A stretch of 64,000 bases of DNA from Heterobasidion occidentale. Taxonomy: Eukaryota > Basidiomycota > Agaricomycetes > Russulales > Bondarzewiaceae. Within the stretch, counting starts at the first letter, position 1. Each line of letters starts with the position of its first letter. The notes beneath the pieces were generated by a model that did not search any database, was not told where the DNA came from, and saw only the letters and a list, made by a program, of their open reading frames with translations. The translations under genes were made by a program, and so were the position numbers. Shown piece by piece: positions 12,531-61,870 of this stretch. The stretch covers positions 1,488,001 through 1,552,000 of the forward strand of contig JBCAQO010000010.1 of NCBI GenBank assembly GCA_039111635.1, read 5' to 3'.

Positions 12531-13562
12531 ATGGATCCTGTCCCTTATGTCGACTTTATCCCATACGTGCCGCAAAGTATCACCGCCGTCAAGGCGACAT
12601 TCCGGACGATCTAGTTAAGGAGTTTGCCCCGTTTCCACCTCCAGGATATCCGTTGGACTTCAGGGGTTTGGAGACGCTACATAAATCAATTCACTGTGAG
12701 GCGCTTTGACTATCTGGCATCTTTTTGATCCGTGCAGACTGATTGCGGTTCCAAGCTTCTCTCAACACCGTCATCCCTTTAAAAGAAGAAGTTGCGAACA
12801 GACTGCTTCTTAGAATTGTTGGAACACCTTCTGTAAGTAGAACCATGTAATCTTGTCTGTCACTCGACTCACTGACCAAGGATATGCTGCATCAGGTCAA
12901 CCATATGGAGAACTTCCGCTGTCTCAATAAAGACTCAAACAACAAGGCCATCTACGGCCCCTGGCATAGAGGCAATGTAGTAGAGATGGGGGTCAGCAAG
13001 TGCCTGGTTCGTCTGGAGGGTGTGCTTGTTCGACCATCTTTTTGCTGAGTGGAATCATCATCCTCCAAGGTCGGCGTCACCATCACCTGGTATATTGTCA
13101 AGATGCCACCACTCGGCAAGAGCAAAGAAAGCGCGAGGGTTCTCGTCCGTCCTTGGTTCGGAGAGACTAATCCCTACCGCAGTTGGCGCAGGAGGTGTAC
13201 GATTACTGCGAACGCCTGGTGAGTCGACTCATTGCTCTCAGTGTTCTGTCTTGAATCTCATCTTACAACATGATGTTCAGCGCAATTACTTCGTGGCGGA
13301 GAAATTACAGGGACGTCGAGGATGGGTGTGGAGCCCTGCTACAATTGTGGTACGTCTGAGCTCACAATTCTGTCATCTTGTTCTCACGATGCTTTGTTCC
13401 TCCTCGCAGAGTCCCTTGGGTGCACCGATTGTAGTCAAGTACAAGCCCGGCTCTCTAGCGACGGAGCAGTACGGGAGTCAACTCGTGCACGCATTATATG
13501 CCGTTCCTGACACCCAGGACGCTATGCGATCTCTTTCGGGCATGGGCCAGTTTATAGAATGA
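12531..13562 (+). pseudogene. WTPA-WAVP family copy W1, probably broken
   Basis: Member of an unrecognised multicopy family. The conserved N-terminal phrase RRQGDIPDDLV is found near 12,580 but out of frame with the nearest ATG (12,531), and the second exon reads into TGA near 12,741 if spliced at the visible sites. The 3' part is clean: exon NYFVAEKLQGRRGWVWSPAT ends at an intron in the conserved position, and the last exon carries SPLGAPIVVKYKPGS and LVHALYAVPDTQDAM, ending GQFIE. It lies tail to tail with BTB copy A, 300 bp away. The frame breaks may be real decay or base-calling errors; a working gene with a different start cannot be excluded. Function unknown. Confidence 0.55.
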
Positions 13563-13862
13563 GAATTTCGCCATGCTCAATCCTTGCCGCCTTCTTTGAG
13601 ATTATAAGCTCAGTATCGTCTGGTTCGGTGTTCGAACAATCGATGTCACAGCTGTCCGAATTGCTGCCGGCGAGGATTCTCTGTATAGCATGTTCTATCT
13701 CGTAGAGGTTGCAGGGTATGATAGCATTCCGTAATAGCATCAGTGTGACCGAGAATCTATCAACGCTACATCAACAAAACAGCACAGACTTTTAAGGACG
13801 AAGTGATAAATAATTAGCAATTATTCTCGGTTCGGGTTTCCGGTCTCCGCGGTGGGTGTCGA

Positions 13863-14961
13863 TCAATGGTCGGCGAGGTCAAAGTGTCGGCTCAGAGATC
13901 CCCACAATGTCGCCTGCTGCTGCCCCACGTATTTGACCACCTCCGAGCGACATGTGGAACACAGGCCGGTCAGACTGAGAGCCGGCGGCGCGAGCGTGCC
14001 CTGTACTAGCCCCTTCACGAACTCCCAGTCCTCCACGGGCTGCGACATCAGGTCCTGCGTGTTCAGCAGGCACCGCTGCCCCGCGGGCGAGTACCAAAAG
14101 CCCGAGACGAGCGCGTGGCAAGACACCTGGTGTACAGGGTTGGCTGTCAGGGCCGGCCCTGCAATGCTGAGATTGACGTGCGCGGAGCGCAGCCGCGCGC
14201 CGCCGAGCACGAGGCGCTCGACATCGGCCGCTGAGAGCGGGGCGAGGTGGTGCCCGCCCGCCGCCGCCGCCGAGCTGCGGCGTGCGGCGGCTGAGGTCGT
14301 AGAAGCGCGGTGAGCAGGGCGTTGTCGGTGCAGTCGATGGAGCGCAGGAGCGCGATCACCGCGGCGGGGTGCACGATCAGGTCCTCGGCGTGCGGCTGCG
14401 AAGCGCGCCGCGCAGTGAGGGCGCGTGCGCGCGCGAGATGCTTGTCCAGGGCAGAGGGCCAGGCGGCGCGGAGGCGCGCGAGGACGTCATTTTGGAGGCG
14501 CGCGACGCGGTATTTGTACGCGAGGCGGAGGATACCGGAGAGGGTCGGAAAGTTCTCGATGGTGATTTGGGAAGCATCGATAGTGCTGACAGAGGAGCAG
14601 GGAGAAGAGAAGGACCAGGCGAGTGAACAATGGATGAGGAGATTTTGAGTGGCGAGGCCGCAAGTGAGTCTACGCACAAACCATCGTATATTGTGTTCAA
14701 GAATGCCTCCATGTCGTCCTTGTCGTCGACGACCTTGAGCAACGTACAGTCGCGCAGGGTGTCACGCGCGGGGGCGAGCATCTCCTGGAATAAGGTGGAG
14801 TGCTTGAGGAGGATGCTGCGGTGGACGCGGAAGAGGGTCTTGCCGCACTGTAAGAGGACGTTTCCGTCATCGAAGTAAAGCGCTGGGTGATTTGCGAGCA
14901 GCTCGGCATCGAGCTCGCTGCGCGGACGTTTGCGGTCAGAGGGTGGATCGATGGAGGCCAT
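13863..14961 (-). pseudogene. BTB/POZ family protein copy A, two frame changes
   Basis: Exon 1 holds a BTB-type fold: KRPRSELDAELLANHPALYF, DGNVLLQCGKTLFRVHRSIL, FQEMLAPARD, then DDMEAFLNTIYDGL before an intron. Exon 2 continues with LRLAYKYRVARLQNDVLARL (BACK-like helices) and HPAAVIALLRSIDC. Between about 14,230 and 14,310 the frame changes twice compared with copies B and D: two bases appear lost before FYDLSRRTPQL, and another shift lies in a GGC repeat before GGHHLAPLSAADVERLVLGG. The C-terminal part is then intact, with CSTCRSEVVKYVGQQQATLW and the stop after FDLADH. Such proteins may be Cul3 adaptors or transcriptional co-factors; no role is established. Confidence 0.7.
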
Positions 14962-15253
14962 GCTGGTCGAGCCTGTCGCTAACGAGGGGAAGGGTTCTGA
15001 TCACGTAAGTAACAGCGTCCTTGTTAAAGAAATGGCCTCGCGTCGCTGCTCTTCGACCTCGACACACACAAGTAGTAGGCCTCATGCAACTTCAATCTTC
15101 CGGAATGTCGCTGACTGTCTTACTGATGGCTGCAGATACACGTTCATGTGAGATCGTTGAATACCAAATCCCTTAGACGCGCATCTCCTCGCCGGTTACA
15201 CGCGGACGTGCCCACTGCCCACTGCCCATAGCCCTCCAAGTCTCTCTGCCACC

Positions 15254-16600
15254 ATGCACCACTTATCAGCCGCTCTGCGCGACTTGATCTCCCGCGCACT
15301 CCCCTGTCTCTCCCCCTCACATAGAGCCATGTCTTTCCCCAACGATGTCCTCTACTTCCCCAAGGAAGAACTCATCTACAACGTGACTGGATGGGCGGGG
15401 TTCATCCTCTTCACCTCCACCACCTCAGAGGACCGCCCGCGCATCGCCAGCATAAAACACTGCAAGCGGAAGCGCGGCGTCTTCCACGAGTTTCTCATCG
15501 TCGAGTTCGAGTACCTCGTTCCAGGCGCTCCCCCGCGCACCGTGCCCATCATCGTCGAGCGCACGATCGAGACCAGCCAGCTCCCCAAAGACAAGATCCG
15601 TCCCGCCGCCGACCTCTCCCATGAGAACGGCAGCCGCTTTTCGGCCTTCTTTCAATCCCCGTCCTCCTCTCGCCTCAGCTTGTCCCCCAGCTCCGTGGCC
15701 TCGTCCTCGTCCTCTTCCCTTGCGACGCCCGCCTTCGATCGCATCATCGTCCCCCCGAAAGGCGCGCGCGTCGGCAAAATCGACCGCCACTCCCGCCGCC
15801 CGTATAAGATCTGCCGCATGCTCACGTTTGATAAGCGCTTTACCGACTACGACCTCGCCGCGTTGCTGCTCGCGCTCCAAGAATACGCTCCCGACTACGA
15901 GCTCCTCTCGCGCCAGTGTTACTGGTATGCGACCGTGATCTACGATTTCTTCCGCGAGCGCCTCATCGGCCTTGGCAACGAGGACGGCGAGGAGGCCGAG
16001 TACGATGTCGGCAAGCTCAAGGACGAGCGTGGGCGCTTCCTCACTGTCTTCACCATCCAGCCCCCTGAGCCGCCGCTGGGCGAGATCAAGTCTGAGTTCG
16101 AGAAGCAACTTGCCGCGCTGTTGGACGAGAGGGCCCGGGAGGATCACCCCGCCGCCAAGTGGGTGAGGTCGCAGGAGGTGATGCGAGCGGCCATCGCAAG
16201 GGCGGAGGAGGAGGCAGCGGCGAGGAAGAGGGCGGAAGCCGTAGCAAAGGAAGAGGCCGCAGCGAGGGTGGAGGCCGAAGCGGCGGCGGCGGCAGCGGAA
16301 GCGACGGCGGAGGCAGCGGAAGCGGCGGCAAAGGCAGCGGAAGCGGCGGCAAAGGCAGCGGAAGCCGTAGCAAAGGAAGAGGCCGCAGCGAGGGTGGAGG
16401 CCGAAGCGGCGGCGACGGCAGCGGCAGCGGCAGCGAAGGCAGCGGCAGCGGCAGCGAAGGCAGCCGACGCAAGGGCGGCGGCGGCAGAGGCGGCGGCAGA
16501 GGCAGAGGCTGCGGCAAGGGCTCTGCTGGACGATGAGGTTGCCGTCCTCCGGCAGCAGCTCGCGGCCCTGAACCATGCTGACCCGTCCCCGGCCGCGTAA
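15254..16600 (+). CDS. hypothetical protein with Ala/Glu/Lys-rich coiled-coil tail
   Basis: A single 448-codon frame without introns. An internal ATG at codon 26 (MSFPNDVLYFPKEELIYNVT) is an equally good start. The N-terminal ~270 residues are globular in composition (GWAGFILFTST, HEFLIVEFEYLVPG, RRPYKICRMLTFDKRFTDYD, LLSRQCYWYATVIYDFF) with a Ser-rich insert. Fungal proteins of this general layout are common and uncharacterised. The last ~150 residues are EAAAKAAEAAAK-type repeats, encoded by GCGGCGGAAGC units, and should form a long helix or coiled coil. The antisense strand is open across much of it (15,425-16,684), a consequence of the repeated GCN codons. No function can be assigned. Confidence 0.7.
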   Translation: MHHLSAALRDLISRALPCLSPSHRAMSFPNDVLYFPKEELIYNVTGWAGFILFTSTTSEDRPRIASIKHCKRKRGVFHEFLIVEFEYLVPGAPPRTVPIIVERTIETSQLPKDKIRPAADLSHENGSRFSAFFQSPSSSRLSLSPSSVASSSSSSLATPAFDRIIVPPKGARVGKIDRHSRRPYKICRMLTFDKRFTDYDLAALLLALQEYAPDYELLSRQCYWYATVIYDFFRERLIGLGNEDGEEAEYDVGKLKDERGRFLTVFTIQPPEPPLGEIKSEFEKQLAALLDERAREDHPAAKWVRSQEVMRAAIARAEEEAAARKRAEAVAKEEAAARVEAEAAAAAAEATAEAAEAAAKAAEAAAKAAEAVAKEEAAARVEAEAAATAAAAAAKAAAAAAKAADARAAAAEAAAEAEAAARALLDDEVAVLRQQLAALNHADPSPAA

Positions 16601-17187
16601 TATCATGCAAAGTATACCATCTATCTTCCGCCAATCTTCAATTCTGCTCTCATATATGCTCTGATCAATGCTGTCCATGTACATCCCCGCACTCTCACAT
16701 TCGGCTATCTATACCACTTGCATTGTCTATATATCCTCGAGTTCGCGATGTGTTCCCTGAGGCCAGGACTTTTTTGGTTGAGTCCTTGCGTGTATGGCAG
16801 CTCTCTCTGCTGCGCTGAAGCGACGTCGTCTTACAGTAGAGGATCCTTGGCTAAATGTACGTCTGGAAGCGCAGACGTTGAATCTTTTAGGTATCAGCGG
16901 TCCCTCGCGCAATCCACAAAAAATTGTGTATTTTACAAGAGCTCGTATCACAGTCTGCATCGCAGTGGGAAGCCAGAGAAGATGTGTCGAAGCACTGAAC
17001 ATGCTGGGAAAAGAAGAAATAGATCTGGCTGATAGACACGAAGAGACACACAGGCGTTCACAAGACCAGATCTGCGTGAAGAGCAACGGACTGTGAGCAC
17101 GGAACCAAAACAAAACGACAGCAGAGCAGAGAGACTGTACAACAAAGCGGCTTATTTAACAAGATAGAACACTTTCATCAAGATACC
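16601..17187. other. intergenic, no gene seen
   Basis: 3' flanks of the coiled-coil gene and of BTB copy B. A 100-codon frame at 16,794-17,096 is overlapped by an equally long antisense frame; neither has recognisable content. Confidence 0.4.
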
Positions 17188-18331
17188 TTACTCGAGGCCA
17201 AAAAACGTAGGCATTGAGCGCCAAAGTTCTGCCTGCTGCCGCTCTACGTGCTGCAGCACCTCCGTGCGGCACGCCGAGCACACGCTCCAAGGAAAAGCCG
17301 ACTCCGTCGTGGCCGACCGCACCATCTGCCTCACAGTCTCCAAGTCCTCGACCGGCTGCGACATGAGGCCCGCCGGGAGCAGAAGCAGCGGCTGAGCCGT
17401 GTGAGTCCGAAATGCATGGATATACGAATGGCATGTCCCCCAGTGCTCGGGGACGGCAACAAGCATCGGTGAGGCGTACATTTGGACCTGGGTCATCCGG
17501 AGACGCGCGAGGCCAATCACAAAACGCTCAATATCGGCGGGCGCGAGGCAGGAAAGGGGATGGTTGGTATATACACCGCTGATGTGTTGGGGGGTGCAGC
17601 GGCTGACGTCGTAAAATAGTGCCATGAGCAACCCTTGGTCATCGTAGTGGATGGCACGCAGAAGCGCGATTACCGCAGCCGGGTGGACGGGCAAGTTTGT
17701 TGTGGTGTTCGTATCGACCTCCGGGTCTATAACCTCCGATAGGTCGATGGGCAGGTCTTGGATATACGACTGCAAAGAAGCGCGGCATGCAGCGAGGTCG
17801 TGTGTGGATTGCAGGTGGTGAGGGAGGTTAGATGGCCAAGCAGCATGCAGAGCTGCGAGAAATTCGGCTTTCAGGTGTTCGACACGGTACTTGTGCGCGA
17901 GACGGAGGACGCTGGATAGAGAGGAAGAGTTCTCTCGAGTGATTCGAGGCGATCCGATAATGATGGGGCAAGTGTGGTAGCACGACTATGTAAGAATTCA
18001 GAGAGGAGGTCATCCTCAGCCCAACGTACCGTTCACCATACAACGCATTGAGAAACGACACCATGTCGCTTTCATTGTCGTCAAGTTTGAGAAGCGTGCA
18101 ACCACGGATGGTCTCATGAATGCGATCGGGTGCGAGCATCTCCTGAAATACAGTCGAGACCTTGACGACGACGGTGTAGTGGACGCAGAAGAGTGTCTGG
18201 CCGCATTGAAATATTAGGTTTCCATCTTCGTGGTATCGAGTAGGATGGTTGACAAGCAGCTCTGTGTCAAGCTCGCCACGGTGACGTTTGGGAGCTCGAG
18301 AGTCATCGCAGGTGTCGCTGGTGATACTCAT
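17188..18331 (-). CDS. BTB/POZ family protein copy B, intact
   Basis: Two exons. Exon 1: KRHRGELDTELLVNHPTRYH, EDGNLIFQCGQTLFCVHYTV, FQEMLAPDR, DMVSFLNALYGER, the BTB fold. After an intron of about 100 bp: SSVLRLAHKYRVEHLKAEFL and HPAAVIALLRAIHYDDQGLL, then ALFYDVSRCTPQ, LAPADIERFVIGLARLR, and a C-terminal block LMSQPVEDLE followed by CSACRTEVLQHVERQQAELW, ending TFFGLE. The BTB-BACK-like order plus a C-terminal CxxC-R-E/S pair defines the local family. The CxxC may bind metal with partners elsewhere; that is inference. No frameshift was seen, so this copy and copy D serve as references for the broken ones. Confidence 0.85.
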
Positions 18332-19651
18332 GTAAGTATGAGATAGAAAGAGGAGGTCTTAGCGGAGAAATCAAGCAGGGGACAGAGAAACCAAGCCGAA
18401 AAGCAGGGGCTCGTGGAATAGACATGGATGCATCGCGCTAAGCCTTTGTTTAAGAAGGTGCTGCTGATGTAGTCAGTGCCCTCCAAGTCCAGGTATGCAG
18501 ACCCAGTGCCGGATTAGACGAGTACTCTTCTACTGTGGGACTGGTTGCGTCGGGAATCGAACCCTCAGCCGGCCGCCTCATGATGAGCGCTGACTACCGA
18601 AAACTTGCAATGACCTTTCTCTCTACTACTACGATCACAGCTACCATCTTAAGATTATGACCAAAACCTTCCTTTATTTTCCATCCAAGCTGCTCATACC
18701 ATCGGACCAACCAACAAGACGCCCACCACCATCTTCGTTGTCATAACCTGCGCTATTGAACGCACGAATTTTCGACGTCCAGCTCGCGGAAGCCGCAGAT
18801 TCCAGAAAGTACAGAAGACGAGAAGGATACTCAAGAATCATTCGAAAATGACTTTTTGAAGTAGAGCCGATGGTCTGTTGGCGTGCGTGTTGCTCTCATT
18901 CCAATCCAAGGCCAAATATCTCCTATTCCCGGTAACTCATTGAATGGTACGCATCTGAGTCAAAATACCACCATCTTAATTCGTCCCATCGGAGAGATTG
19001 CAACTGCCACTGCACACAGGAAGCGCATCATTGGATGCGTCAGTGATCACACCCAGCGCCAGTGAGACAGGCCATATTTCTTGCGAAGGCAAGCCGCAGC
19101 GCTCTATAGTCACAACCTTGGTGTGTCGCAAACGAGCCATATACTGAAGTATACGGAAGTCGGAACATGATCCTTGAATGGTCTCTGTCTCTTGCTCATA
19201 GAAACCCGACATCGATTTTTCAATACGTCATAATCTTTACCTTCCCCGCAGGTCCTTTGGTCTGCTGCAGATTTCTGCGGTGAATCCCAAGTTCATTCTC
19301 TCAGTCTTTCAAAGCACTGTGATAACACCTTAGTTTCGAGACTCCTTTCTTTTTTGCAATTAGATTCAGATGCAAGCTTCGGCCCTTTGACGCCCTAGCG
19401 ATGATTTGGGGCTCTTTAGCTCCAACTTGAGCTCTTGTCCACTCGGTCGAGGCACCAGCCACCGGTTGACATCAAGGGGCTCATGTTTGCTCTTTGTCCA
19501 GATTCTATTGTCCGCCATACTTTCACTTCGGTCACCGAGGTGGCGACCTGTCAGCGTCACTTGGCTTCCAAGCGTGGCATGTCGAACCCCGTAGCATCAA
19601 TGCGACAAGAGAAGTGTGCTCGTCGCTTGTATGTGCCACGGCTCTTATACC
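18332..19651. other. upstream region of W2, mostly inside the inverted repeat
   Basis: No gene recognised. From 18,457 onward the sequence is repeated in inverted form at 59,170-60,379. It contains a pol III B-box-like sequence at 18,553-18,563 and the promoter of the W2 gene. Confidence 0.5.
18553..18563 (-). promoter_or_regulatory. pol III B-box-like sequence near outer edge of left arm
   Basis: On the minus strand this reads GGTTCGATTCC, an exact match to the tRNA T-loop/B-box consensus. The flanks do not fold into a full tRNA: no matching acceptor stem is visible. The same element lies at 60,273-60,283. It may be a tRNA or SINE remnant. Confidence 0.3.
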
Positions 19652-19660
19652 TATATAAAT
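19652..19660 (+). promoter_or_regulatory. TATA box of W2
   Basis: TATATAAAT lies 106 bp before the ATG at 19,766, preceded by CGCTTGTATGTGCCACGGCTC, which resembles the block before the TATA boxes of the W4-W3 and W5 genes. It is duplicated at about 59,164-59,174 in the right arm. Confidence 0.5.
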
Positions 19661-19765
19661 ACCCACACCGTTGCACCATCCAACATTCCTTGCCCTATCC
19701 CTCCCCTCCCCTCTTCCACTCCTCATTGCATCTTTTTCTCCCGCTACCATCATCTAACACGTACA

Positions 19766-20796
19766 ATGCGGCGTCAGGGGACATCCCGCACAAGCTTATA
19801 CCCAAAAATCCTCTTGAGTTCAAGGATGACCCATGCCTTCCTCTGAGTTGCAAGGATATCATCCCGTTGTGCAATATCATCGCGCCCTGTACGTCCTCTC
19901 CCCCTGTTTGCAGCTGGTAATAGCGCTAATCAACTGGCTCCTTAGACGATGATATGATGCCTTACGCTTCCAGAACATTTAACACCACCGTATATTTTGG
20001 ATGTGAAACGGTGAGTGCTATATGGCTCCGGTCAATGCGCTCCCACCGACATGCAGACACACTACACCAGCGCAACAAAGTAATCACTTGTCGAAAATTT
20101 AACCCATCCGATGGGACATTCACGCCGAGCTTCAAAGCCACAGTGGTCCAGAGACGCATGAACCGAGCCTTGGTAGGTCTAAGACATATTCTGCTTTTAC
20201 CGTCACTTACGACGGAGCCCTCATTATTCGGCAGCTCGGCGTTGACATCCCTTTTTACGATGTACGCCCCATCGACAACCCACAGGCGCTTGTCACCATC
20301 TACCCTTTCCTTTTGGAAATTGTTACGAAAGACCCTTCGGCTGAATCTCTCAGAGCGGTTGGCTTGACAAACTACACGCCACGCGGTCCTGGTGATGTCC
20401 AAAGACTCATCGGGCAAATGGTCAGCCATCTTCACGTGATGAATCTGTATCATGTTGTATTGATACCCTGTGTTACTCGTAGAGACAGTGTCTCGTGAAG
20501 GAGCTTGTCGATGACCCATCTGACCCAGAAAGCGAACTTTGGGAATGGACTCCTGCTACAATCGAGGTACGTGGCCGTTTCACTTTTCTTTGAATCAAAA
20601 CTTACCGTGCTTTCTGTATATTCAGAGCGAATGGGCGGGTCCCTTCATGGTTAGATACACAGAAGGTTACAAGGCGCATAGGAAACATGGCAATGAACTT
20701 GTCCATGTCTTCTGGGCCGTGCCCAACACCGATCAAGCTCGCGAGATTCTTAGAAATCATGGTGAACCGATTGCTGAAAGGTCGGTGGCTGGGTGA
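19766..20796 (+). CDS. WTPA-WAVP family copy W2 (left arm), one-base frame break at codon 5
   Basis: Counterpart of W7 in the right arm. Exon 1 should read MRRQGDIPHKLIPKNPLEF, as in W7, but here the run GGGGG has four G, which breaks the frame. Later exons are intact: DDMMPYASRTFNTTVYFGCE, then QLGVDIPFYDVRPIDNPQAL and VTIYPFLLEI, then LVKELVDDP and SELWEWTPATIE, an intron at the conserved phase-0 site, and SEWAGPFMVRYTEGYKAHRK with LVHVFWAVPNTDQAREIL, ending ERSVAG. Because W7 has the intact start but a different one-base break, sequencing error in one or both arms is likely and the ancestral gene was complete. No signal peptide or membrane segment is visible. Function unknown. Confidence 0.6.
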
Positions 20797-21066
20797 TAGC
20801 CGAACGTTCATGGCAAGGCCCCGATAACAACAGATGGATGTATAAGGATGACTGCCTCCTAGGACAAGCTTGCTAAACAATATTTCATTGATTTTGAGAA
20901 AGAAGTTTGTTGATAGATCTTGAAAACAATGTACTTAGCCAATAAGGAATGACATATTAATGACTGTTTGTTCCCATCTAGCGTTTCAACATGCCGATGC
21001 CAGTCCCATCATCTCTGTGAGATGCTGAGATGAGTAGCTTATGCCGGACAGGCGAAGACCGATAGA

Positions 21067-21085
21067 GAGTGATCAATGATCACTC
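21067..21085. promoter_or_regulatory. 19-nt perfect palindrome upstream of gene X
   Basis: GAGTGATCA-A-TGATCACTC, about 95 bp before the ATG, repeated in every tandem unit and in the right arm near 57,740. Symmetry suggests a dimeric DNA-binding protein, but no protein is known. Confidence 0.35.
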
Positions 21086-21179
21086 ATGTTAATAACGCTT
21101 CTTATGTCCTCACGTCTTATATCCTCACGAACATCCAACAACGAAGAACGTAGTACGATTCCAACCATCACATACCTAG

Positions 21180-21638
21180 ATGAACAAACTACGGAAACCT
21201 ACACCTTCCTCACCTGCAAAGCGCGAACTTAGCGGACCAGCTCCAAACGGCTCCAATGCGCGCACGACCAGCACCCCCGCTCATTCTGCACGATCCCCGA
21301 CGCACCCACAAACACTGACAGAGGCGCCGATCGTTCCTTCGTATCATACAACACCGCTGGTCGTCTCTAGAACAATGACTTACGCTACAGCTGACGCGGC
21401 CCTGGTCTCCTTTAAACCATCTCTACCGTCTCCGCCAGTCCCACAACAGCAACACGCAGCGCTCAGGTACCCCAAGGCGCACGCGCCGCTCCCGACGTCC
21501 CCAGCAGAGCAATACTGGGCCGCCCGCGCGCTCACAGCGGAGACACTGCTTTCGGCGGCGGAGGCGCACCAGCGGGAGGTGCGGAGCGCGGTGGACGCAG
21601 AAGAGGAGAAGCGACTGGTCGGTTTCCTCAATTCGTGA
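21180..21638 (+). CDS. gene X first-exon copy 1
   Basis: First exon of the gene X family in tandem unit 1: MNKLRKPTPSSPAKRELSGP, a Pro/Ser/Thr-rich disordered stretch, then a helical region with AEQYWAARALTAETLLSAAE and AHQREVRSAVDAEEEKRLVG. In this unit the downstream exons are not adjacent. It could only be used by splicing over the next two units, or it makes a 152-residue protein alone. Confidence 0.5.
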   Translation: MNKLRKPTPSSPAKRELSGPAPNGSNARTTSTPAHSARSPTHPQTLTEAPIVPSYHTTPLVVSRTMTYATADAALVSFKPSLPSPPVPQQQHAALRYPKAHAPLPTSPAEQYWAARALTAETLLSAAEAHQREVRSAVDAEEEKRLVGFLNS

Positions 21639-21838
21639 GGGTGCAGTCCGGGATATTGACAGCGTGTCGACGTGCATTTGACTGGGGTTCGAGTAGCTTA
21701 TGCCGGACAGGCGAAGACCGATAGAGAGTGATCAATGATCACTCATGTTAATAACGCTTCTTATGTCCTCACGTCTTATATCCTCACGAACATCCAACAA
21801 CGAAGAACGTAGTACGATTCCAACCATCACATACCTAG

Positions 21839-22381
21839 ATGAACAAACTACGGAAACCTACACCTTCCTCACCTGCAAAGCGCGAACTTAGCGGACCAGC
21901 TCCAAACGGCTCCAATGCGCGCACGACCAGCACCCCCGCTCATTCTGCACGATCCCCGACGCACCCACAAACACTGACAGAGGCGCCGATCGTTCCTTCG
22001 TATCATACAACACCGCTAGTCGTCTCTAGAACAATGACTTACGCTACAGCTGACGCGGCCCTGGTCTCCTTCAAACCATCTCTACCGTCTCCGCCAGTCC
22101 CACAACAGCAACACGCAGCGCTCAGGTACCCAAGGCGCACGCGCCGCTCCGACGTCCCCAGCAGAGCAATACTGGGCCGCCCGCGCGCTCACAGCGGAGA
22201 CACTGCTTTCGGCGGCGGAGGCGCACCAGCGGGAGGTGCGGAGCGCGGTGGACGCAGAAGAGGAGAAGCGACTGGTCGGTTTCCTCAATTCGTGAGGGTG
22301 CAGTCCGGGATATTGACAGCGTGTCGACGTGCATTTGACTGGGGTTCGAGTAGCTTATGCCGGACAGGCGAAGACCGATAG
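21839..22381 (+). pseudogene. gene X first-exon copy 2, frameshifted
   Basis: Same sequence as copies 1 and 3 up to the phrase QQHAALRYP, where one C is missing from a CCCC run. A second C is missing about 20 bp later. The frame no longer reaches the coiled-coil segment. Both changes are in runs of C, so base-calling error is possible. Confidence 0.6.
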
Positions 22382-22495
22382 AGAGTGATCAATGATCACT
22401 CATGTTAATAACGCTTCTTATGTCCTCACGTCTTATATCCTCACGAACATCCAACAACGAAGAACGTAGTACGATTCCAACCATCACATACCTAG

Positions 22496-23656
22496 ATGAA
22501 CAAACTACGGAAACCTACACCTTCCTCACCTGCAAAGCGCGAACTTAGCGGACCAGCTCCAAACGGCTCCAATGCGCGCACGACCAGCACCCCCGCTCAT
22601 TCTGCACGATCCCCGACGCACCCACAAACACTGACAGAGGCGCCGATCGTTCCTTCGTATCATACAACACCGCTAGTCGTCTCTAGAACAATGACTTACG
22701 CTACAGCTGACGCGGCCCTGGTCTCCTTCAAACCATCTCTACCGTCTCCGCCAGTCCCACAACAGCAACACGCAGCGCTCAGGTACCCCAAGGCGCACGC
22801 GCCGCTCCCGACGTCCCCAGCAGAGCAATACTGGGCCGCCCGCGCGCTCACAGCGGAGACACTGCTTTCGGCGGCGGAGGCGCACCAGCGGGAGGTGCGG
22901 AGCGCGGTGGACGCAGAAGAGGAGAAGCGACTGGTCGGTTTCCTCAATTCGTGAGGGTGCAGTCCGGGATATTGACGGCGTGTCGACGTGCATTTGACTG
23001 GGGTTCGATCCTGACCTCCCCCATATTGACCTTGCCCGATTTTCCTCGACGCGCAATCGAACCTCTCGGCGATGCACGCGCGCAGAGAGACATCGCAGCG
23101 CTGCAGAAAGTGCACAGCGAGCGTGAGCGCAAGATGGAGCGCGTCGTGGTGAGCACAATCTATTTGTCACACGAGGTGAAGGTACAACGATCCACGATCG
23201 ACTGGGGCAGATGTTTTCCGGGGTGTTCATCGCGCTCCTCGTAGCCGTGCTCGTTTATCTCCTCGTCGACCACCACCATGCACGGCCCAAGGGACCGGCG
23301 CCCTCGATGTGGGGCATGGCCTTGCCGTCACATTTTACGATCCCTATTCTCTCACCATGGACGTCCGTCGTAAGTTTCTCTCGTCGTGCCACCCTCGCTC
23401 GCCCAAGTGCCAGCAATCGCTTCCTCTTATGTTGGCATCCCGTCTTGGCCTTGTCACGATGCCCATTCTCGTCGCTCACTCACACGCGTTCTCATAACAT
23501 GCAAACGGGCACGCAATCAAACGAATCAAGGTGGAGCATGAGGCGTCGGTGATTGGCGCGAAAACGACGATCGCCTTCGCGCTGATCGCGGCTGGACTTG
23601 CGTATGCCATGTTCAGATACTGGGCCGCAGCGCGTGGACATCGGCAACAGCAATGA
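22496..23656 (+). CDS. gene X (left arm): small coiled-coil membrane protein
   Basis: Unrecognised family; the complete structure is inferred from both arms. Exon 1 (22,496-22,954 region) is a Pro-rich disordered N-terminus followed by a charged helix (AHQREVRSAVDAEEEKRLVG). The next exon continues the coil with AQRDIAALQKVHSERERKME. Another encodes a hydrophobic segment, MFSGVFIALLVAVLVYLLVD, and the last gives ASVIGAKTTIAFALIAAGLA and YAMFRYWAAARGHRQQQ before the stop. The product would be a two-membrane-segment protein with a cytosolic or lumenal coiled coil. Exon borders are approximate. It lies between W2 and the BTB fragment, the same order as in the right arm. Function unknown. Confidence 0.5.
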
Positions 23657-23788
23657 CCATTCATTCTAGGGAAAGACAAAGCTGGCATATACATACATTC
23701 GTCATACAGCGTCATAGGTGCAGATATCGGAGATAACAGTGGCATAAGTAGATGGACATGAAGAGAATTTGCACACGCGATGCCATGC

Positions 23789-24089
23789 TTATGGTTTCCT
23801 GCCAGCAGTTGCGGGCGGTAGCAAGTAGCACTCGTCCAGTGATGCCCAGAGTGAGTTCTGACAGCGCAAGACGTGTTGGAGGAGCTCGAAGCGACACACC
23901 TCACACAGCCTGCTGAACTCGACCGGCTGCTTCAGCGAGCCCTCTACTTGGGCCCTAATGATCCACCATTTATAGATCGGCTGCGCCAGACGGTTTCCAG
24001 TGTCCATCAGTATGCGCACGGCGGTGACCCAAAAGGCATCCACAATGGCGTGGCAAGTCGACTGGTGATCGGACACATCTAACAGCAGG
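23789..24089 (-). pseudogene. 3' fragment of a BTB family gene (copy C)
   Basis: Only the last ~100 codons remain: LLDVSDHQSTCHAIVDAFW, QPIYKWWIIRAQVEGSLKQP, then CEVCRFELLQHVLRCQNSLW and the stop. It matches the end of copy F at 56,051-56,349. The copy is cut at exactly the inner edge of the inverted repeat, so it was carried along by the duplication and cannot encode a BTB protein. Confidence 0.85.
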
Positions 24090-24224
24090 GTAGAAAGTGG
24101 GGTCAGCAACGGAGGCTGCCAGCACGGGGCCCCTGCTAGAGGAATGGGTGGCTGTGAGTCTCGGGCAGCGCCGATCTTTCGGATGTCGAATGCCCCTGTT
24201 CACCTCACGCATACGCGCAAGCCA

Positions 24225-33300: not shown

Positions 33301-33319
33301 GCGGCGGGCGGGCAGCCAT
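27325..33319 (-). CDS. 1,3-beta-glucan synthase catalytic subunit (FKS family, GT48)
   Basis: Plasma-membrane enzyme that polymerises UDP-glucose into the main cell-wall beta-glucan. Domains in order: a disordered Tyr/Asp/Ser-rich N-terminus; FKS1 domain 1 ([39 protein letters not shown]); a first membrane block ([20 protein letters not shown]); the cytosolic GT48 core ([60 protein letters not shown]); and a second membrane block up to the C-terminus [14 protein letters not shown] after a final intron. Short introns interrupt the frame throughout. In the core (about 29,560-30,740) about eight one-base indels break the frame, mostly deletions in short base runs; the amino acids around each are conserved, so sequencing error is more likely than a dead gene. 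It is the only glucan synthase in the window. Confidence 0.93.
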
Positions 33320-52033: not shown

Positions 52034-54058
52034 TTATTGGATTTCTTTGGCAATACATTTGCCAAGCTCTTCGAGGCCAGTCCTAGCTTCAGGAGTGTCG
52101 GGCACAGCCCAAAACGCCTTGACATTAGCACCACCGTGTTTGTAGGAGGCCGCATATCCGTCCTCAAACCTGACCACTAGGGGATACTCATGCCATGCGC
52201 TCTGGATACACCGGCGGCCGTCAGAATGAGATCCTACGATGTTGGAAATAGTCACGCACCATTAGAATGGCCGGCGTCCATTCGACTCTGGTTGTTCCTT
52301 CTGTGTGCTCGGTGATTGACTCTGCCACGAGGCACAAACGCTAGTGGGCACAAAAGAATCAAGGTCAAGACGGCCTGCAGGGGACTACCTGAATTTAGAC
52401 GTGACTGACCAAATTGAGAACCTTCTCTAGCTCACTGTCGGCTACACCCTCGAGGAATGGATATTCCATGTGGATATGATTTTTTTCGTTGTGCCAAATC
52501 ACACTGTAAAACGGAAGTTTGTGGCCGAGCTGTCAAATACGGATAGGGCTGGCTGAGGAATGGTGGTCAGAATCAAACGGGCATCGGACACACCAGGGCT
52601 TGCTGAACGCCGTGAGAGACAACTCTGTAATACTCCTCGAAGTATTTGTTAATCCCCCCCAGCCTGAAATCACCAAGCCCACCTGAAACAATTTGATAGC
52701 AAGTAAGTCAGAGCTACGCAGAGATTTTGAGCTACTGACCGTGCCACACGTAGGCATCCCACCATGAGAAATGATACACCCTTCGCAATCTCCCGAAGCG
52801 ATCTGGAATTGCTGCAGACACTCTACTATTGACGTCCGGCATTGCAGCAGATCAGCCTGAGAGGCAGCGGTAGGCATTCAACGAGACAACTTACGGCCGA
52901 CTATCCTTTCGTTAAGTTCCCATATGTCCCTAGGATGGAACCCGAGCGGGAGACATGTGCACTCCCAGAATTGCAAAGGATGCGGAACCAGTTGTTCGGG
53001 GATGCCCATCTGGGTTGGCATCCCAGCTCTCGAAGCGACAATCTGGCCGTGAACTCGAAGAACCTCCCTGACTTGAGGAGTGTTGGGCACAGCCCAAAAC
53101 GCTTTCACTCGGTTGCTACCGTGTTTGTTGAAGGCCGGGTACCCCGGAGAAAACTCAACCAGGAGTGGCCAGTCCTCCCACTCGCTCTGAATCAATGAGC
53201 CAAAAGGACGAGATCTTGGGAGGTTTGTGATTACATACCACAATAATCGCAGGCGACCATTCAGGCCAAAACGTTCCATCTGGCTGGAGCACCCTCTCCG
53301 CCACAAGGCAATATCGCTATTGGACAGGAAGGAACAAAAGATCAATACAACACGTAAAGATCTACCTTTAAACTTGACTAACCAAAGAATCAATTGTATG
53401 CCAATCGAGATCAGCAGGTTCGGTCAGGTCCCATACCTCCCCAAGGAATGGGTAGACTGTAAATTCCTGAGACGTATCGCATTGGTTTTCCATTTTATAA
53501 AAAGGCAATGCGACACCGAGCTGTTGAATATGAACTGTCCCTAAGAATAGCGATCAAAATTGAAGGTTAAATGGACGCACGAGACCTCGCTGTACGCCAT
53601 GGCTTTTGACTATGAATTTTGCGCAGTCAACAGGCTGGTTGTTGAACGTTGGCGGTTCAATCGTGTGTTCCATTTCGTTGACTTTTCGAACTGAAAGCAA
53701 CGGTTCAAGCTGACATGATTTCACGATGAGTCAATCCGGGCCACCAAACAAAGACGGGCTACTGACCTTTGGACATGAAACTCTGTTTTCATCTTCGCGT
53801 ACACACCCCTCACAGCCGCCCTTGAACGGCTCCAGCCAGTCATCTGTCAACGTGGATCGAAGTTGATCAGAATGAGAGAGCGACAGGCAATGAGCCAGAC
53901 TACTTACAACCCTCCAGTTCTTCACACAACTGTCTCGGATTGAATGGAATGATGAAATTATCCCCAATATCGATGGGATGGGGAACGAGGCTTTCCCAAA
54001 TGCCCAACTGAATTAGAGCCGTGGTGTACGAGCGAGAGGAAACAGGATAAGTTGACAT
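52034..54058 (-). CDS. WTPA-WAVP family, double-module gene (W4 then W3)
   Basis: The N-terminal module starts MSTYPVSSRSYTTAL then LGIWESLVPHP, and later QQLGVALPFYKMENQ, TVYPFLGEVWDLTEPADLDW, YCLVAERVLQPDGTFW, PEWSPAIIV, SEWEDWPLLVEFSPGYPAFN and VKAFWAVPNTPQVREVL. Without a stop the frame runs into the start of a second module, TQMGIPEQLVPHPLQF, followed by DVNSRVSAAIPDRF, CLVAESITE, RVEWTPAILM, SAWHEYPLVVRFEDGY and VKAFWAVPDTPEARTGL, ending CIAKEIQ. There is no room for a second promoter, so one two-module protein is the simplest reading; two overlapping genes starting at the internal MPTQMG is the alternative. Several short introns; exact exons of the middle parts are uncertain. No known domain recognised. 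Confidence 0.6.
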
Positions 54059-54094: not shown

Positions 54095-54420
54095 GGTGCT
54101 CTGGATATTTATCGAGCTGCGAGGGCCGTGTGGTATACGCAAGTGGCTAATCTGCCACAATAGGTAGCATTGTTGCTGGCATGGTCAGCCTGACGAGTCG
54201 CTCAGGCTGCAACGGCGGTGACGAGCATGCCACCTTGTCGCTTTGTGCCCAAACGAACGCGTCACGGGTACCTGAATCCTCGAGAGTGGTACCTCACCTG
54301 ATATGACAGTGGCGCAAGGCCACCGATGGTCAGTGACGCGAGTGGGCCCAAGCGAATCCACCCATCGTGGCGCTCAGTAGAGATCTGAGACAAAATCGGA
54401 ACATTCGACTTAACAACGCT
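54095..54420 (-). promoter_or_regulatory. promoter block of W4-W3, shared with W5
   Basis: TATA-like GATAAATATCCAG lies at 54,101-54,113 (minus strand), about 45 bp before the ATG. Upstream, GCAAGGCCACCGATGG, ACGCGAGTGG and CGTGGCGCTCAGT are shared with the region upstream of W5 (61,915-62,240). Confidence 0.6.
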
Positions 54421-55258: not shown

Positions 55259-56349
55259 ATGAACACCAGCGCCATCCACCAACAAACGTCGCCGCACAGA
55301 CGCAGAGCCTGAACAGGACACGCTGGTTAATCATCAGACGCTTTTTCGCGAAGACGGGAACACCATCATCCAGTGCGAGTCGACGCTGTTTCGCATCCAC
55401 AGCGGCCTGCTCGCAAGCTGTTCCCGATGGTTCAGCGAATTTTTCACACCCGAACGCGAGCACAAAGACGCTTTACTGTTCTTAAACCTGGATGTCGGCA
55501 GTGAAGACATGGCCGCGTTCCTGACAGCGGTCTACGATGAACTGTGCGTACCTACTTCATCATGCAATGCCACTCGTCCTCAATCCAATCTTTTGATCCT
55601 CTCTGTCAACGCAGCCTTCCAGATCCGGTGCTCACAGTACAAAATTGCCTCTATTTCTTCGGAGTCCTCAAGATCGCGCACAAGTACGGTGCCGAATCCA
55701 TCAAGGACGCCGTCCTCGCGCGCTTACAAGCGACTTGGCCTGCCAAACTCGAGGACCATATCGGGCGCGTCCAGCAGGTCTTGCGCAAGGCACGTCCGCG
55801 CCCGCAGGACATGTTATGAGGCGCCCGAACCCTGCGAAGGCCATCGCCACCCTGCGATCCATCGACTTCTCCGACCCTATACTTCTCGCGCCCCTCTTCT
55901 ACGACCTGAACAACGCGACAACCTTGTCGACAGACCCGCGCACGCTTGGTTGCACGTACAGGTGTCTCAGCTTCCCAGATATCGAGCGCGTTGTTATCGG
56001 AAACGCGAGCCTCGCAGCTAAACACGTCGCTCTGAGCGTGACGCCGCCCGTGCTGTTGGATGTGTCCGATCACCAGTCGACTTGCCACGCCATTGTGGAT
56101 GCCTTTTGGGTCACCGCCGTGCGCATACTGATGAACGCTAAAAACCGTCTGGCGCAGCCGATCTTTAAATGGTGGATCATTAGGGCCCAAGTAGAGGGCT
56201 CGCTGAAACAGCCGGTCGAGTTCAGCAGGCTATGTGAGGTGTGTCGCTTCGAGCTCCTCCAACACGTCTTGCGCTGTCAGAACTCACTCTGGGCATCACT
56301 GGACGAGTGCTACTTGCTACCGCCCGCAACTGCTGGCAGGAAACCATAA
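55259..56349 (+). pseudogene. BTB family copy F, full length but with frame breaks
   Basis: Source-like copy for fragment C. BTB fold: NKRRRTDAEPEQDTLVNHQT, REDGNTIIQCESTLFRIHSG, WFSEFFTPERE, DMAAFLTAVYDEL, an intron, then FFGVLKIAHKYGAESIKDAV, AIATLRSIDFSDPILLAPLF, FPDIERVVIGNASL and the terminal CEVCRFELLQHVLRCQNSLW. The nearest ATG (55,259) is out of frame with the BTB start, and the frame also changes near 55,815 between RPRPQDM and RRPNPAKAIATL. Copies B and D are uninterrupted at these places. The breaks may be decay or base-calling error. The 3' ~300 bp lie in the right inverted-repeat arm. It is convergent with gene X. Confidence 0.7.
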
Positions 56350-56481
56350 GCATGGCATCGCGTGTGCAAATTCTCTTCATGTCCATCTACTTATGCCACT
56401 GTTATCTCCGATATCTGCACCTATGACGCTGTATGACGAATGTATGTGTATGCAAGCTTTGTCTTTCCCTAGAATGAATGG

Positions 56482-57642
56482 TCATTGCTGTTGCCGATGT
56501 CCACGCGCTGCGGCCCAGTATCTGAACATGGCATACGCAAGTCCAGCCGCGATCAGCGCGAAGGCGATCGTCGTTTTCGCGCCAATCACCGACGCCTCAT
56601 GCTCCACCTTGATTCGTTTGATTGCGTGCCCGTTTGCATGTTATGAGAACGCGTGTGAGTGAGCGACGAGAATGGGCATCGTGACAAGGCCAAGACGGGA
56701 TGCCAACATAAGAGGAAGCGATTGCTGGCACTTGGGCGAGCGAGGGTGGCACGACGAGAGAAACTTACGACGGACGTCCACGGTGAGAGAATTGGGATCG
56801 TAAAATGTGACGGCAAGGCCATGCCCCACATCGAGGGCGCCGGTCCCTTGGGCCGTGCATGGTGGTGGTCGACTAGGAGATAAACGAGCACGGCTACGAG
56901 GAGCGCGATGAACACCCCGGAAAACATCTGCCCCAGTCGATCGTGGATCGTTGTACCTTCACCTCGTATGACAAATAGATTGTGCTCACCACGACGCGCT
57001 CCATCTTGCGCTCACGCTCGCTGTGCACTTTCTGCAGCGCTGCGATGTCTCTCTGCGCGCGTGCATCGCCGAGGTGTTCGATTGCGCGTCGAGGAAAATC
57101 GGGCAAGGCCAATATGGGGGAGGTCAGGATCGAACCCCAGTCAAATGCACGTCGACACGCTGTCAATATCCCGGACTGCACCCTCACGAATTGAGGAAAC
57201 CGACCAGTCGCTTCTCCTCTTCTGCGTCCACCGCGCTCCGCACCTCCCGCTGGTGCGCCTCCGCCGCCGAAAGCAGTGTCTCCGCTGTGAGCGCGCGGGC
57301 GGCCCAGTATTGCTCTGCTGGGGACGTCGGGAGCGGCGCGTGCGCCTTGGGGTACCTGAGCGCTGCGTGTTGCTGTTGTGGGACTGGCGGAGACGGTAGA
57401 GATGGTTTAAAGGAGACCAGGGCCGCGTCAGCTGTAGCGTAAGTCATTGTTCTAGAGACGACCAGCGGTGTTGTATGATACGAAGGAACGATCGGCGCCT
57501 CTGTCAGTGTTTGTGGGTGCGTCGGGGATCGTGCAGAATGAGCGGGGGTGCTGGTCGTGCGCGCATTGGAGCCGTTTGGAGCTGGTCCGCTAAGTTCGCG
57601 CTTTGCAGGTGAGGAAGGTGTAGGTTTCCGTAGTTTATTCAT
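56482..57642 (-). CDS. gene X (right arm), single-copy first exon
   Basis: Same gene as at 22,496-23,656, with one promoter/first-exon unit. Exon 1 frame (57,184-57,642): MNKLRKPTPSSPAKRELSGP to EEKRLVG. Later exons: AQRDIAALQKVHSERERKME, the hydrophobic MFSGVFIALLVAVLVYLLVD, and GAKTTIAFALIAAGLAYAMF, ending WAAARGHRQQQ. It is 133 bp from the stop of BTB copy F, tail to tail. The arms differ by a few substitutions (PLGDARA here HLGDARA), none of which breaks the frame of the later exons. Confidence 0.55.
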
Positions 57643-58026
57643 CTAGGTATGTGATGGTTGGAATCGTACTATGTTCTTCGTTGTTGGATGTTCGTGAGGA
57701 TATAAGACGTGAGGACATAAGAAGCGTTATTAACATGAGTGATCATTGATCACTCTCTATCGGTCTTCGCCTGTCCGGCATAAGCTACTCATCTCAGCAT
57801 CTCACAGAGATGATGGGACTGGCATCGGCATGTTGAAACGCTAGATGGGAACAACAATCATTGATATGTCATTCCTTATTGGCTAAGTACATTGTTTTCA
57901 AGATCTATCAACAAACTTCTTTCTCAAAATCAATGAAATATTGTTTAGCAAGCTTGTCCTAGGAGGCAGAGTCATCCTTATACATCCATCTGTTGTTATC
58001 GAGGCCTTGTCATGAACGTTCGGCTA

Positions 58027-59054
58027 TCACCCAGCCACCGACTTTTCAGCAATCGGTTCACCATGATTTCTAAGAATCTCGCGAGCTTGATCGGTGTTGG
58101 GCACGGCCCAGAAGACATGGACAAGTTCATTGCCATGTTTCCTATGCGCCTTGTAACCTTCTGCGTATCTAACCATGAAGGGACCCGCCCAATCGCTCTG
58201 AATATACAGAAAGCACGGTAAGTTTTGATTCAAGGAAAAGTGAAACGGCCACGTACCTCGATTGTAGCAGGAGTCCATTCCCAAAGTCGCTTTCTGGGTC
58301 AGATGGGTCATCGACAAGCTCCTTCACGAGACACTGTCTCTACGAGTAACACAGGGTATCAATACAACATGATACAGATTCATCACGTGAAGATGGCTGA
58401 CCATTTGCCGATGAGTCTTTGGACATCACCAGGACCGCGTGGCGTGTAGTTTGTCAAGCCAACCGCTCTGAGAGATTCAGCCGAAGGGTCTTTCGTAACA
58501 ATTTCCAAAAGGAAAGGGTAGATGGTGACAAGCGCCTGTGGGTTGTCGATGGGGCGTACATCGTAAGAAGGGATGTCAACGCCGAGCTGCCGAATATTGA
58601 GGGCTCCGTCGTAAGTGACGGTAAAAGCAGAATATGTCTTAGACCTACCAAGGCTCGGTTCATGCGTCTCTGGACCACTGTGGCTTTGAAGCTCGGCGTG
58701 AATGTCCCATCGGATGGGTTAAATTTTCGACAAGTGATTACTTTGTTGCGCTGGTGTAGTGTGTCTGCATGTCGGTGGGAGCGCATTGACCGGAGCCATA
58801 TACCACTCACCGTTTCACATCCAAAATATGGTGGTGTTAAATGTTTGGAAGCGTAAGGCATCATATCATCGTCTAAGGAACCAGTTGATTAGCGCTATTA
58901 CCAGCTGCAAACAGGGGGGAGAGGACGTACGGGGCGCGATGATATTGCACAACGGGATGATATCCTTGCAACTCAGAGGAAGGCATGGGTCATCCTTGAA
59001 CTCAAGAGGATTTTTGGGTATAAGCTTGTGCGGGATGTCCCCCTGACGCCGCAT
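58027..59054 (-). CDS. WTPA-WAVP family copy W7 (right arm), one-base break before the last intron
   Basis: Counterpart of W2. Exon 1 is intact: MRRQGDIPHKLIPKNPLEF, DDPCLPLSCKDIIPLCNIIA. It then reads DDMMPYASKHLTPPYFGCE. In the exon before the last intron the phrase for SELWEWTPATIE has lost one A of an AA pair (near 58,280), which breaks the frame here but not in W2. The last exon is intact: SDWAGPFMVRYAEGYKAHRK, LVHVFWAVPNTDQAREIL, ending EKSVAG. A TATA box (TATATAAAT on the minus strand) lies near 59,164-59,174. Confidence 0.6.
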
Positions 59055-59174
59055 TGTACGTGTTAGATGATGGTAGCGGGAGAAAAAGATGTGATGAGGA
59101 GTGGAAGAGGGGAGGGGCGGGATAGGGCAAGGGAATGTTGTGGATGGTGCAACGGTGCTGTGGGTATTTATATA

Positions 59175-60651
59175 GGTATAAGAGCCGTGGCACATACAAG
59201 CGACGAGCACACTTCTCTTGTCGCATTGATGCTACGGGGTTCGACATGCCACGCTTGGAAGCCAAGTGACGCTGACAGGTCGCCACCTCGGTGACCGAAG
59301 TGAAAGTATGGCGGACAATAGAATCTGGACAAAGAGCAAACATGAGCCCCTTGATGTCAACCGGTGGCTGGTGCCTCGACCGAGTGGACAAGAGCTCAAG
59401 TTGGAGCTAAGAGCCCCAAATCATCGCTAGGGCGTCAAAGGGCCGAAGCTTGCATCTGAATCTAATTGCAAAAAAGAAAGGGTCTCGAAACTAAGGTGTT
59501 ATCACAGTGCTTTGAAAGACTGAGAGAACGAACTTGGGATTCACCGCAGAAATCTGCAGCAGACCAAAGGACCTGCGGGGAAGGTAAAGATTATGATGTA
59601 TTGAAAAATCGATGTCGGGTTTCTATGAGCAAGAGACAGAGACCATTCAAGGATCATGTTCCGACTTCCGTATACTTCAGTATATGGCTCGTTTGCGACA
59701 CACCAAGGTTGTGACTATAGAGCGCTGCGGCTTGCCTTCGCAAGAAATATGGCCTGTCTCACTGGCGCTGGGTGTGATCACTGACGCATCCAATGATGCG
59801 CATACTGTGTGCAGTGGCAGTTGCAATCTCTCCGATGAGACGAATTCAGATGGTGGTATTTTGACTCAGATGCGTACCATTCAATGAGTTACCGGAATAG
59901 GAGACATTTGGCCTTGGATTGGAATGAGAGCAACACGCACGCCAACAGACCATCAGCTCTACTTCAAAAAGTCAATTTCGAATGATTCTTGAATATCCTT
60001 CTCGTCTTCTGTACTTTCTGGAATCTGCGACTTCCGCGAGCTGGATGTCGAAAATTCGTGCGTTCAATAGCGCAGGTTATGACAACGAAGATGGTGGTGG
60101 GCATCTTGTTGATTGATCCGATGGTATGAGCAGCTTGGATGGAAAAGAAAAGAAGGTTTTGATCATAATCTTAAGATGGTAGCTGTGATCGTAGTAGTAG
60201 AGACTCGAGAGAAAGGTCATGTATAACGCAAGTTTTCGGTATTCAGCGCTCATCATGAGGCGGTCGGCTGAGGGTTCGATTCCCGATTCAACCAGTCCCA
60301 CAGTAGAAGAGTACTCGTCTAATTCGGCAATGGGTCTGCATACCTGGACTTGGAGGGCACTGACTACATCAGCAGCACCCTGCTTATGTCGGTTGTTTTC
60401 CTTATTCAATGCCAGGGTCGTTGAAGGCCATGTGTCCGTCCTACTACTAAGGCAGAGGTTGGAGACAGTCGAGCCTAGCAGCTTTGCAACAATCAATCTA
60501 ATGTACCATGCTAAGCAAGGTAATCTCTCCGTAGGACAGTTAGCATTTACCCGAGTTATGGACAGGGACTACTATGGAGTGAGATATCTCTAGCAATTCA
60601 TTCTCGATTTTCTGGTCTCATACAGAAGTCGTACGCGATGATCAGCCTTAC
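59175..60651. other. upstream region of W7 and edge of the inverted repeat, no gene seen
   Basis: Mirrors 18,457-19,650 up to 60,379. Beyond that, 270 bp of unique sequence precede the 3' end of W5. No reading frame of note. Confidence 0.45.
60273..60283 (+). promoter_or_regulatory. pol III B-box-like sequence near outer edge of right arm
   Basis: GGTTCGATTCC, the same element as at 18,553-18,563, about 100 bp inside the outer end of the arm. No complete tRNA fold is apparent. Confidence 0.3.
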
Positions 60652-61870
60652 TTATACAGATAAACGCCGGAACTGTGTTGGGTCTTGTCGGCACCATTTA
60701 GTGGCGGCAACATTGTGGCCGAGACTTCTAAGAAGCTTTTTAGCCTCGACAGTGTCGGGCACAGCCCACAAGGCGTTGACGAATTTGCCTTTGTGTTTGA
60801 TATAGGCCGGATATCCCGGAGTAAATTCGACCACGAGCGGATATTCATGCCATTCGCTCTGAACAGGCAACTATAAGGAAGAGACTTTCTGATGTTTGAT
60901 ATGGTTACGCACCACAATTGTGGCCGGCGTCCACTGTCTAATCCGACCTAGTCTCGGATCCTCGATCTCCTCTGCCACAAGGCAGTATCGCTATTGGACG
61001 TAAAGAAATGAAGGGTCAACACGGCCTGTGATAGGCTATTCAGTTCAGACCTGACTGACCAAAGACTTTAATTGATTCCAATCGATATGATCATCGGTCG
61101 GATGAGGGGGGGATGCTTTTTCGCCAGACCACATGAAATCCCTGACCTCCCAAAGGAAGGGATAAACGAATCGGAAAAATGGTCTGACTAACGGCGGGTT
61201 GGTGATTGGCGGCGGGTTGTCGATGTATTGCAGGTCGGTGACCAATGGTGGGTATTTCTTTGAAACCAGCATGTAAAACGGCAAGTCCACACCAAGCTGT
61301 CGAACACGGATAAGAATTTCTGAGCGATGACGGTGGAAATTGGATGTATAATAGACGCACTAGACCTTGCTGTGTGTCGTGGCGTAGGATGTCGAAAGCA
61401 TCGTCGATATAGGGCTCAACGATCCTGTTCCACTCGTCGACTCCCCGCGTCTCTACTACCCCGTACCTCTGAGGTAACGTCAGAGGCATGTCAGTCACAG
61501 CCAGTGGAGTAGTGATACAAGCTGCTGACTAAGTTACATCTGTACGGATCGAGGGGACCACAACTCAAACAACGTCTTTGAAATGGCTTCAGCCAATCGA
61601 CTATTGACATCCGGCATCGTAGTTGGTCAGTGTGAGAGGAAGCGTGGTGTAAGGAGCGAATGACTTACAACCGCACACTGCCTCACAACCGCGCACTGCC
61701 TCACAACCGCGCACTGCCTGATGTATTCTTTGGATATCCTCAGGAGTGAATGGGAGGTTCGGATGGGCGTCGAATAGCAAAGGATGCCGAACGAGCTCTT
61801 TTGAAATGCCCATTTGTGTCGCTTCACCCGGGCAGGCGGGGGAGGAGTAGAGCATAGGCTTAGAAGACAT
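60652..61870 (-). CDS. WTPA-WAVP family copy W5
   Basis: Exon 1: MSSKPMLYSSPACPGEATQM, GISKELVRHPLLFDAHPNLP, FTPEDIQRIHQAVRGCEAV, with an 18-bp tandem repeat that adds the phrase CEAVRG-like units before the donor. Then PDVNSRLAEAISKTLFELW, VRQLGVDLPFYMLVSKKYPP with an inserted Pro/Asp-rich stretch, FFRFVYPFLWEVRDFMW, DHIDWNQLKSLV, YCLVAEEIED, RIRQWTPATIV, an intron at the conserved site, and SEWHEYPLVVEFTPGYPAYI with VNALWAVPDTVEAKKLL. No frame break was noticed in the conserved blocks, making it the best single-module reference. Not secreted as far as can be seen. Function unknown. Confidence 0.6.
61672..61730. repeat. 18-bp tandem repeat in exon 1 of W5
   Basis: About three copies of CCTCACAACCGCGCACTG. 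The length is a multiple of three, so copy number changes keep the frame. Confidence 0.8.

Follow-up and report, generated by a model that had tools for sequence, protein, structure and literature searches.

The stretch of Heterobasidion occidentale DNA analysed here, 64,000 nucleotides of contig C10 (C10:1488001-1552000, hereafter the window), holds six modules of the WTPA-AVP proteins, which are a real, undescribed, multicopy and partly decayed family. The modules (W1, W2, W4, W3, W7 and W5) were placed at five loci by six-frame motif search and direct reading; the loci are separated by unrelated genes, and 12531..61870 is thus five loci rather than a single 49-kb feature. Each module spans about 220 aa and runs from an N-terminal block (N-block) through a variable middle and an LG..(L/I)PFY / YPF block to a C-terminal domain of about 80 residues that is divided by a conserved phase-0 intron. 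An earlier, sequence-only reading of this DNA had described six modules with these motifs in this order, and motif search, reading and exon profiles found them at the same places; its account of the N-block as QGDIP or MGI needs one small correction, W3 reading LGI rather than MGI.

Profile scans and a shared intron layout bear out the claim that these modules form a real gene family. Across all six frames of the window, only the six modules exceeded noise with the WTPA exon profile (weakest true piece 19.9 bits, one of two pieces of the frame-broken W7, versus 7.2 bits for the top noise match), and with the AVP exon profile the lowest true match scored 83.4 bits versus 5.2 bits for noise. These C-terminal exon profiles were built from rows that included W1-W5, and self-matches are therefore expected. 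A more independent test was the search of the whole genome (45.05 Mb, 159 contigs) with the last exon of W3, which gave five matches, namely W3 itself, W2, W7, W5 and W4 (E 1.5e-10 to 2.2e-7); W1 was not reached in that genome-wide search, being too diverged for the query, and was recovered with its relative P0004. In the copies read, phase-0 introns lie at the same places, before LG, before the CLV exon and after W(T/S)PA.(I/L)., and the proteins P0001, P0002 and P0004 are joined at these same points; the phases in W1 were read locally, its spliced model losing frame across the LG exon. The intron directly after W(T/S)PA is thus of phase 0 and shared among copies, as had been claimed, and two modules outside the window (C4b and, for frames only, C10d) are consistent with it by eye. 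Similarity to the C-terminal exon profiles likewise extends to the Heterobasidion proteins described below. The middle exons of W3 and W4 contain a CxxC..C motif that was considered as a possible zinc site; the idea was dropped because, by eye, P0010, a homologue of W1 type, does not preserve it.

Two genes of the window are readable throughout. W3 and W4 form one gene of 11 exons and 471 aa with two tandem modules (52034..54058, minus strand; exons 54058-53908, 53843-53763, 53690-53581, 53520-53374, 53316-53239, 53186-52895, 52825-52736, 52682-52594, 52529-52401, 52340-52260 and 52201-52034), with ten GT-AG introns of 52-72 nt and no stop, such that exon 6 closes module W3 and opens module W4. 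W5 (60652..61870, minus strand, 297 aa) is a single module open through six exons (61870-61669, 61600-61546, 61466-61361, 61296-61051, 60990-60913 and 60858-60652), with its ATG at 61870, an 18-bp tandem repeat in exon 1 and uncertain boundaries of intron 2, which need a less usual splice site. A 117-nt element upstream of W3-W4 (54303..54419, minus strand) is 81% identical to 62119-62235 upstream of W5 and is a 5' flank common to the two genes. The remaining modules are frame-broken. W2 (19766..20796, plus strand) has a single-base break just past its putative start codon and is open over its last four exons; W7 (58030..59054, minus strand), an inverted copy of W2 at about 98% identity, is open in exon 1 and broken once in the LG/YPF exon and once in the CLV/WTPA exon. 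W1 (12531..13562, plus strand), the most diverged module of the window with P0010 and P0004 as relatives, has its ATG at 12531, one break between the start (MDPVPYV) and the QGDIP block and a second inside the LG exon. On contig C85, its allele keeps the frame at the first break, shares the second and has a further one in the CLV exon. The breaks in W1, W2 and W7 are those of the present assembly, in which single-base ones could be assembly errors; as it stands, six modules do not equal six working genes.

W2 and W7 lie on the arms of a recent inverted segmental duplication (left arm 18457..24090, plus strand, with W2; right arm 56048..60379, minus strand, with W7), which are 97.7-99.1% identical in three pieces and separated by about 32 kb. 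At its end the left arm has only the truncated tail of a BTB gene that is complete, by coordinates, at the right arm (55263-56349), so the right, W7-bearing arm was probably the source. An assembly artefact was rejected as the origin of the inverted repeat, as the left junction is also present on C85, an allelic haplotig of 27,572 bases that is about 97% identical to window 2601-19680 and closer to the left arm (97.6%) than to the right (95.5%). C85 also has about 700 extra bases near window 14885, and the assembly retains some uncollapsed haplotypes. Within the arms, a 657-659-bp unit with a 152-aa open reading frame (altered in one copy) occurs in three tandem copies on the left (21180-21638, 21839-22381 and 22496-22954, plus strand) and once on the right (57184-57642, minus strand), and a genome search found no others. 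The other copies are older. Synonymous divergence (dS) is 0.87-1.28 for the three pairs among W3, W4 and W5, and for the seven pairs with W1 or W2 it is saturated in five and near 3 in two. The proportion of nonsynonymous differences (pN) was below that of synonymous differences (pS) in all ten module pairs, and the old copies thus show constraint in their coding substitutions.

The family extends beyond the window. A weak match on contig C4 (E 0.68 in one search, 0.026 in another) turned out, when read, to be two diverged modules in tandem, and another at C10:1.606 Mb (E 1.2) to be a further diverged module with a near-identical copy at C10:1.655 Mb (C10:1605706-1606247 and C10:1654878-1655418, 49 kb apart). 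Scored against a profile of nine barrel sequences (A9), hand-joined C4b, C10d and C4a reached 59.6, 34.2 and 21.7 bits, respectively, with 7.3 bits the best among 900 shuffles and three reversals. The genome thus has at least ten modules, a lower bound because each query mainly finds its close kin, in a count that leaves out the C85 copy as an allele of W1 and in which the two distal C10 copies could reflect uncollapsed assembly. The proposed lineage-specific expansion of six modules therefore needs qualifying: W2/W7 is indeed a recent duplication, but the remaining types are old, several of them also occur in Heterobasidion irregulare, and diverged members are present beyond the window on C10 and C4.

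Three protein searches (maximum E 0.001, 10 and 10) returned 1, 8 and 9 proteins, 11 of them distinct, by a method that finds only relatives with exact five-residue words and similar length; as known so far, the family occurs in this genome and in Heterobasidion irregulare. All four named matches are hypothetical proteins of Heterobasidion irregulare TC 32-1 (HETIRDRAFT_156542, 327764, 109035 and 424505), and the other seven proteins come from contigs. By eye, W1-type (P0005 and P0010), W2-type (P0003) and W3-W4-type proteins are all present in Heterobasidion irregulare, and none of the 11 returned proteins is of the W5 type. P0002 and P0004 (source 'lgn') run continuous across the splice points and may be transcripts; P0006, P0009 and P0011 (source 'ena') run on into intron sequence. 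The literature searched contained none of the four HETIRDRAFT tags, and nothing on the WTPA-AVP family appeared in the accessible portions of work on Heterobasidion orphan genes and somatic incompatibility candidates (including PMC5870257). Searches on BTB with F-box in Agaricomycetes and on Tudor/chromodomain expansion in basidiomycetes gave no papers.

Fold prediction, which the sequence-only reading had proposed as a check, was run and gave a small SH3-like barrel for the WTPA-AVP part in two AlphaFold2 models (three copies), predicted with local confidence, closed by a helix and consisting of five strands in the P0001 model, or of four strands and an additional short one in the P0002 model. 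In W5, as an example, the predicted barrel (60703..60990, minus strand) would comprise exon 60990-60913 (CLV...WTPATIV) and exon segment 60858-60703 (SEW...AVP...). Most of the nearest solved folds were PWWP, chromo-barrel or Tudor domains, with Z no higher than 6.2; in the VIA lists, the top rows for both models were PWWP and the MSL3 chromo-barrel. This structural hypothesis of an SH3-like barrel is the new point of the analysis.

The earlier statement that no known domain can be recognised holds for sequence models, none of which reached its cut-off, whereas the predicted structures suggest an SH3-like barrel of Royal type. No Pfam model scored above cut-off for any member scanned, and NCBIfam gave no match among four proteins and none above cut-off, so that a strong match to a known domain, which would have spoken against a new family, is absent from these scans. 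PWWP (PF00855) did not match any member scanned (maximum E 10, with HMMER filters dropping most matches above 0.1), and four sequences that we take to be true PWWP domains do match this model; chromo and Tudor models were likewise not listed for the members scanned. The only Pfam match on P0001 was Agenet (PF05641), at 16.2 bits versus a cut-off of 27, at the W(T/S)PA strand. DUF3444 (E 0.054; one of seven and one of nine members) and Glyoxalase_4 (E 0.079-0.13, one member) fell below cut-off and were set aside, as were sequence-profile matches in the PDB, which we regard as chance (beta-microseminoprotein E 0.65, dehydroquinate dehydratase E 0.28; one further search gave none). Alignment with hhalign to PWWP, chromo-barrel and FXR sequences gave no signal, and a PWWP search of the fungus's own genome found no match but also detected none of 14 controls and is uninformative.

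Taking these results together, we read the C-terminal domain as a putative divergent Royal-type reader domain. The explanation that we favour, tentatively and at somewhat short of an even chance, is an undescribed family with a predicted C-terminal SH3-like barrel near the Royal-type folds (PWWP, chromo-barrel, Tudor), whose intact proteins would be small nuclear readers encoded in a birth-and-death cluster. Judged from the fold, the most likely function would be that of a small reader protein, whose barrel may bind nucleic acid or a peptide, from a histone or otherwise; the W3-W4 protein, with its two modules, may read two such sites. The cluster would evolve by segmental copying followed by reading-frame loss. 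Several points limit this explanation: the Z scores are modest and come with no sequence-profile support for a Royal-type fold, no Foldseek match to the barrel models had an E at or below 0.001, and the alignment under the structural hypothesis is shallow.

Among the neighbouring features are five BTB/POZ-like genes (13863-15000, 17188-18358 and 25022-26122 on the minus strand; 50895-51466 and 55263-56349 on the plus strand), three of which pass the Pfam BTB cut-off, the other two being identified through their similarity to the first. The end of contig C13 matches window 5380-8731 and 14272-15555 side by side at 87-93% and lacks the intervening W1 stretch; it is a diverged copy or structural variant of the W1 flank, without W1. 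The window also contains a 479-aa open frame (15161-16600, plus strand) whose Ala-rich end consists of tandem repeats of 21 bp and 126 bp, two adjacent duplicated 108-nt stretches (92% and 79%) at 24504-24690 and 26856-27036, about 2.35 kb apart, and a large multi-exon gene (28977-33340, minus strand) that we take to be 1,3-beta-glucan-synthase-like.

The alternative closest to our explanation is that the barrel is SH3-like but of another kind, protein-protein or ribosomal-protein-like, which would make the family an orphan adaptor rather than a chromatin reader; we consider this possible but on the unlikely side, as the top VIA rows of both models and the Agenet match on P0001 all point to Royal-type folds. 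Less likely again is a largely dead cluster, in which a family that once worked would now be drifting as pseudogenes in this species and one or two genes at most would still work. The frame breaks in W2, W7 and both alleles of W1 would fit it, as would Heterobasidion irregulare P0005 and P0010, partly out of frame by eye, but all 11 exons of W3-W4 are open, its splice sites are clean and a two-module homologue of it exists, W5 can be followed through its six exons, single-base breaks may be assembly errors, and the continuity of P0002 and P0004 across splice points would fit complementary DNA, their source 'lgn' being undocumented.

Two further possibilities are less likely still. We consider it improbable that the W genes are functionally partnered with the cluster's BTB/POZ genes and duplicate along with them: the five BTB-like genes do lie interleaved among the W loci, two being convergent with W1 and with W3-W4, and a query with the first ranks three of the four others next after its allele and the C13 copy, but the fourth ranks under several copies elsewhere. 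Moreover, none of 36 BTB matches genome-wide (an exon-wise lower bound) lies within 60 kb of the diverged modules at C4:3.30 Mb, C10:1.606 Mb and C10:1.655 Mb, and the C13 end has a BTB copy, while the 5,962 bases read there contain no W match. With W loci that lack BTB and a BTB copy that lacks W, the partnership is not favoured and is largely refuted. Most improbable of all is a transposable element of which the modules would be cargo or relics. Multiple copies, a recent inverted duplication and frame breaks would be expected of one, but the introns are conserved, the old divergence is under constraint, the duplication arms include other sequence too, and no transposase or reverse-transcriptase open reading frame was noticed on reading the window, in which no dedicated search was made.

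The small-reader explanation gives a testable structural hypothesis for proteins that, in a well-studied genus of forest fungi, are annotated only as 'hypothetical'. Should the barrel indeed read chromatin marks, a reader class would have been missed by sequence profiles, and the family would be old enough for diverged subtypes while so far seen in one lineage. A bolder version, which we regard as doubtful, is that these are fungus-restricted chromatin readers: modules of about 220 aa with a new variant of the Royal barrel, used singly or in tandem, in an old multicopy family that turns over through duplication and loss of frame, with relatives in a single basidiomycete lineage only.

Set beside known systems, the predicted barrel has PWWP domains such as Shuguo PWWP (6kcp) as fold neighbours, with no Pfam match and no hhalign signal; the second Trp of the PWWP motif, presumably part of the aromatic cage, would correspond, if aligned by motif, to T or S in all nine A9 rows. 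The MSL3 and MRG15 chromo-barrels and the PHF1 Tudor domain are likewise neighbours in fold, with no sequence match among the members scanned, and Agenet offers a sub-threshold likeness listed for P0001 only. The closest comparison is with the homologues of Heterobasidion irregulare, uncharacterised and represented by partial gene models, among which HETIRDRAFT_156542 (P0001, 357 aa) has the same two-module join as W3-W4, at 66% identity over 363 aa.
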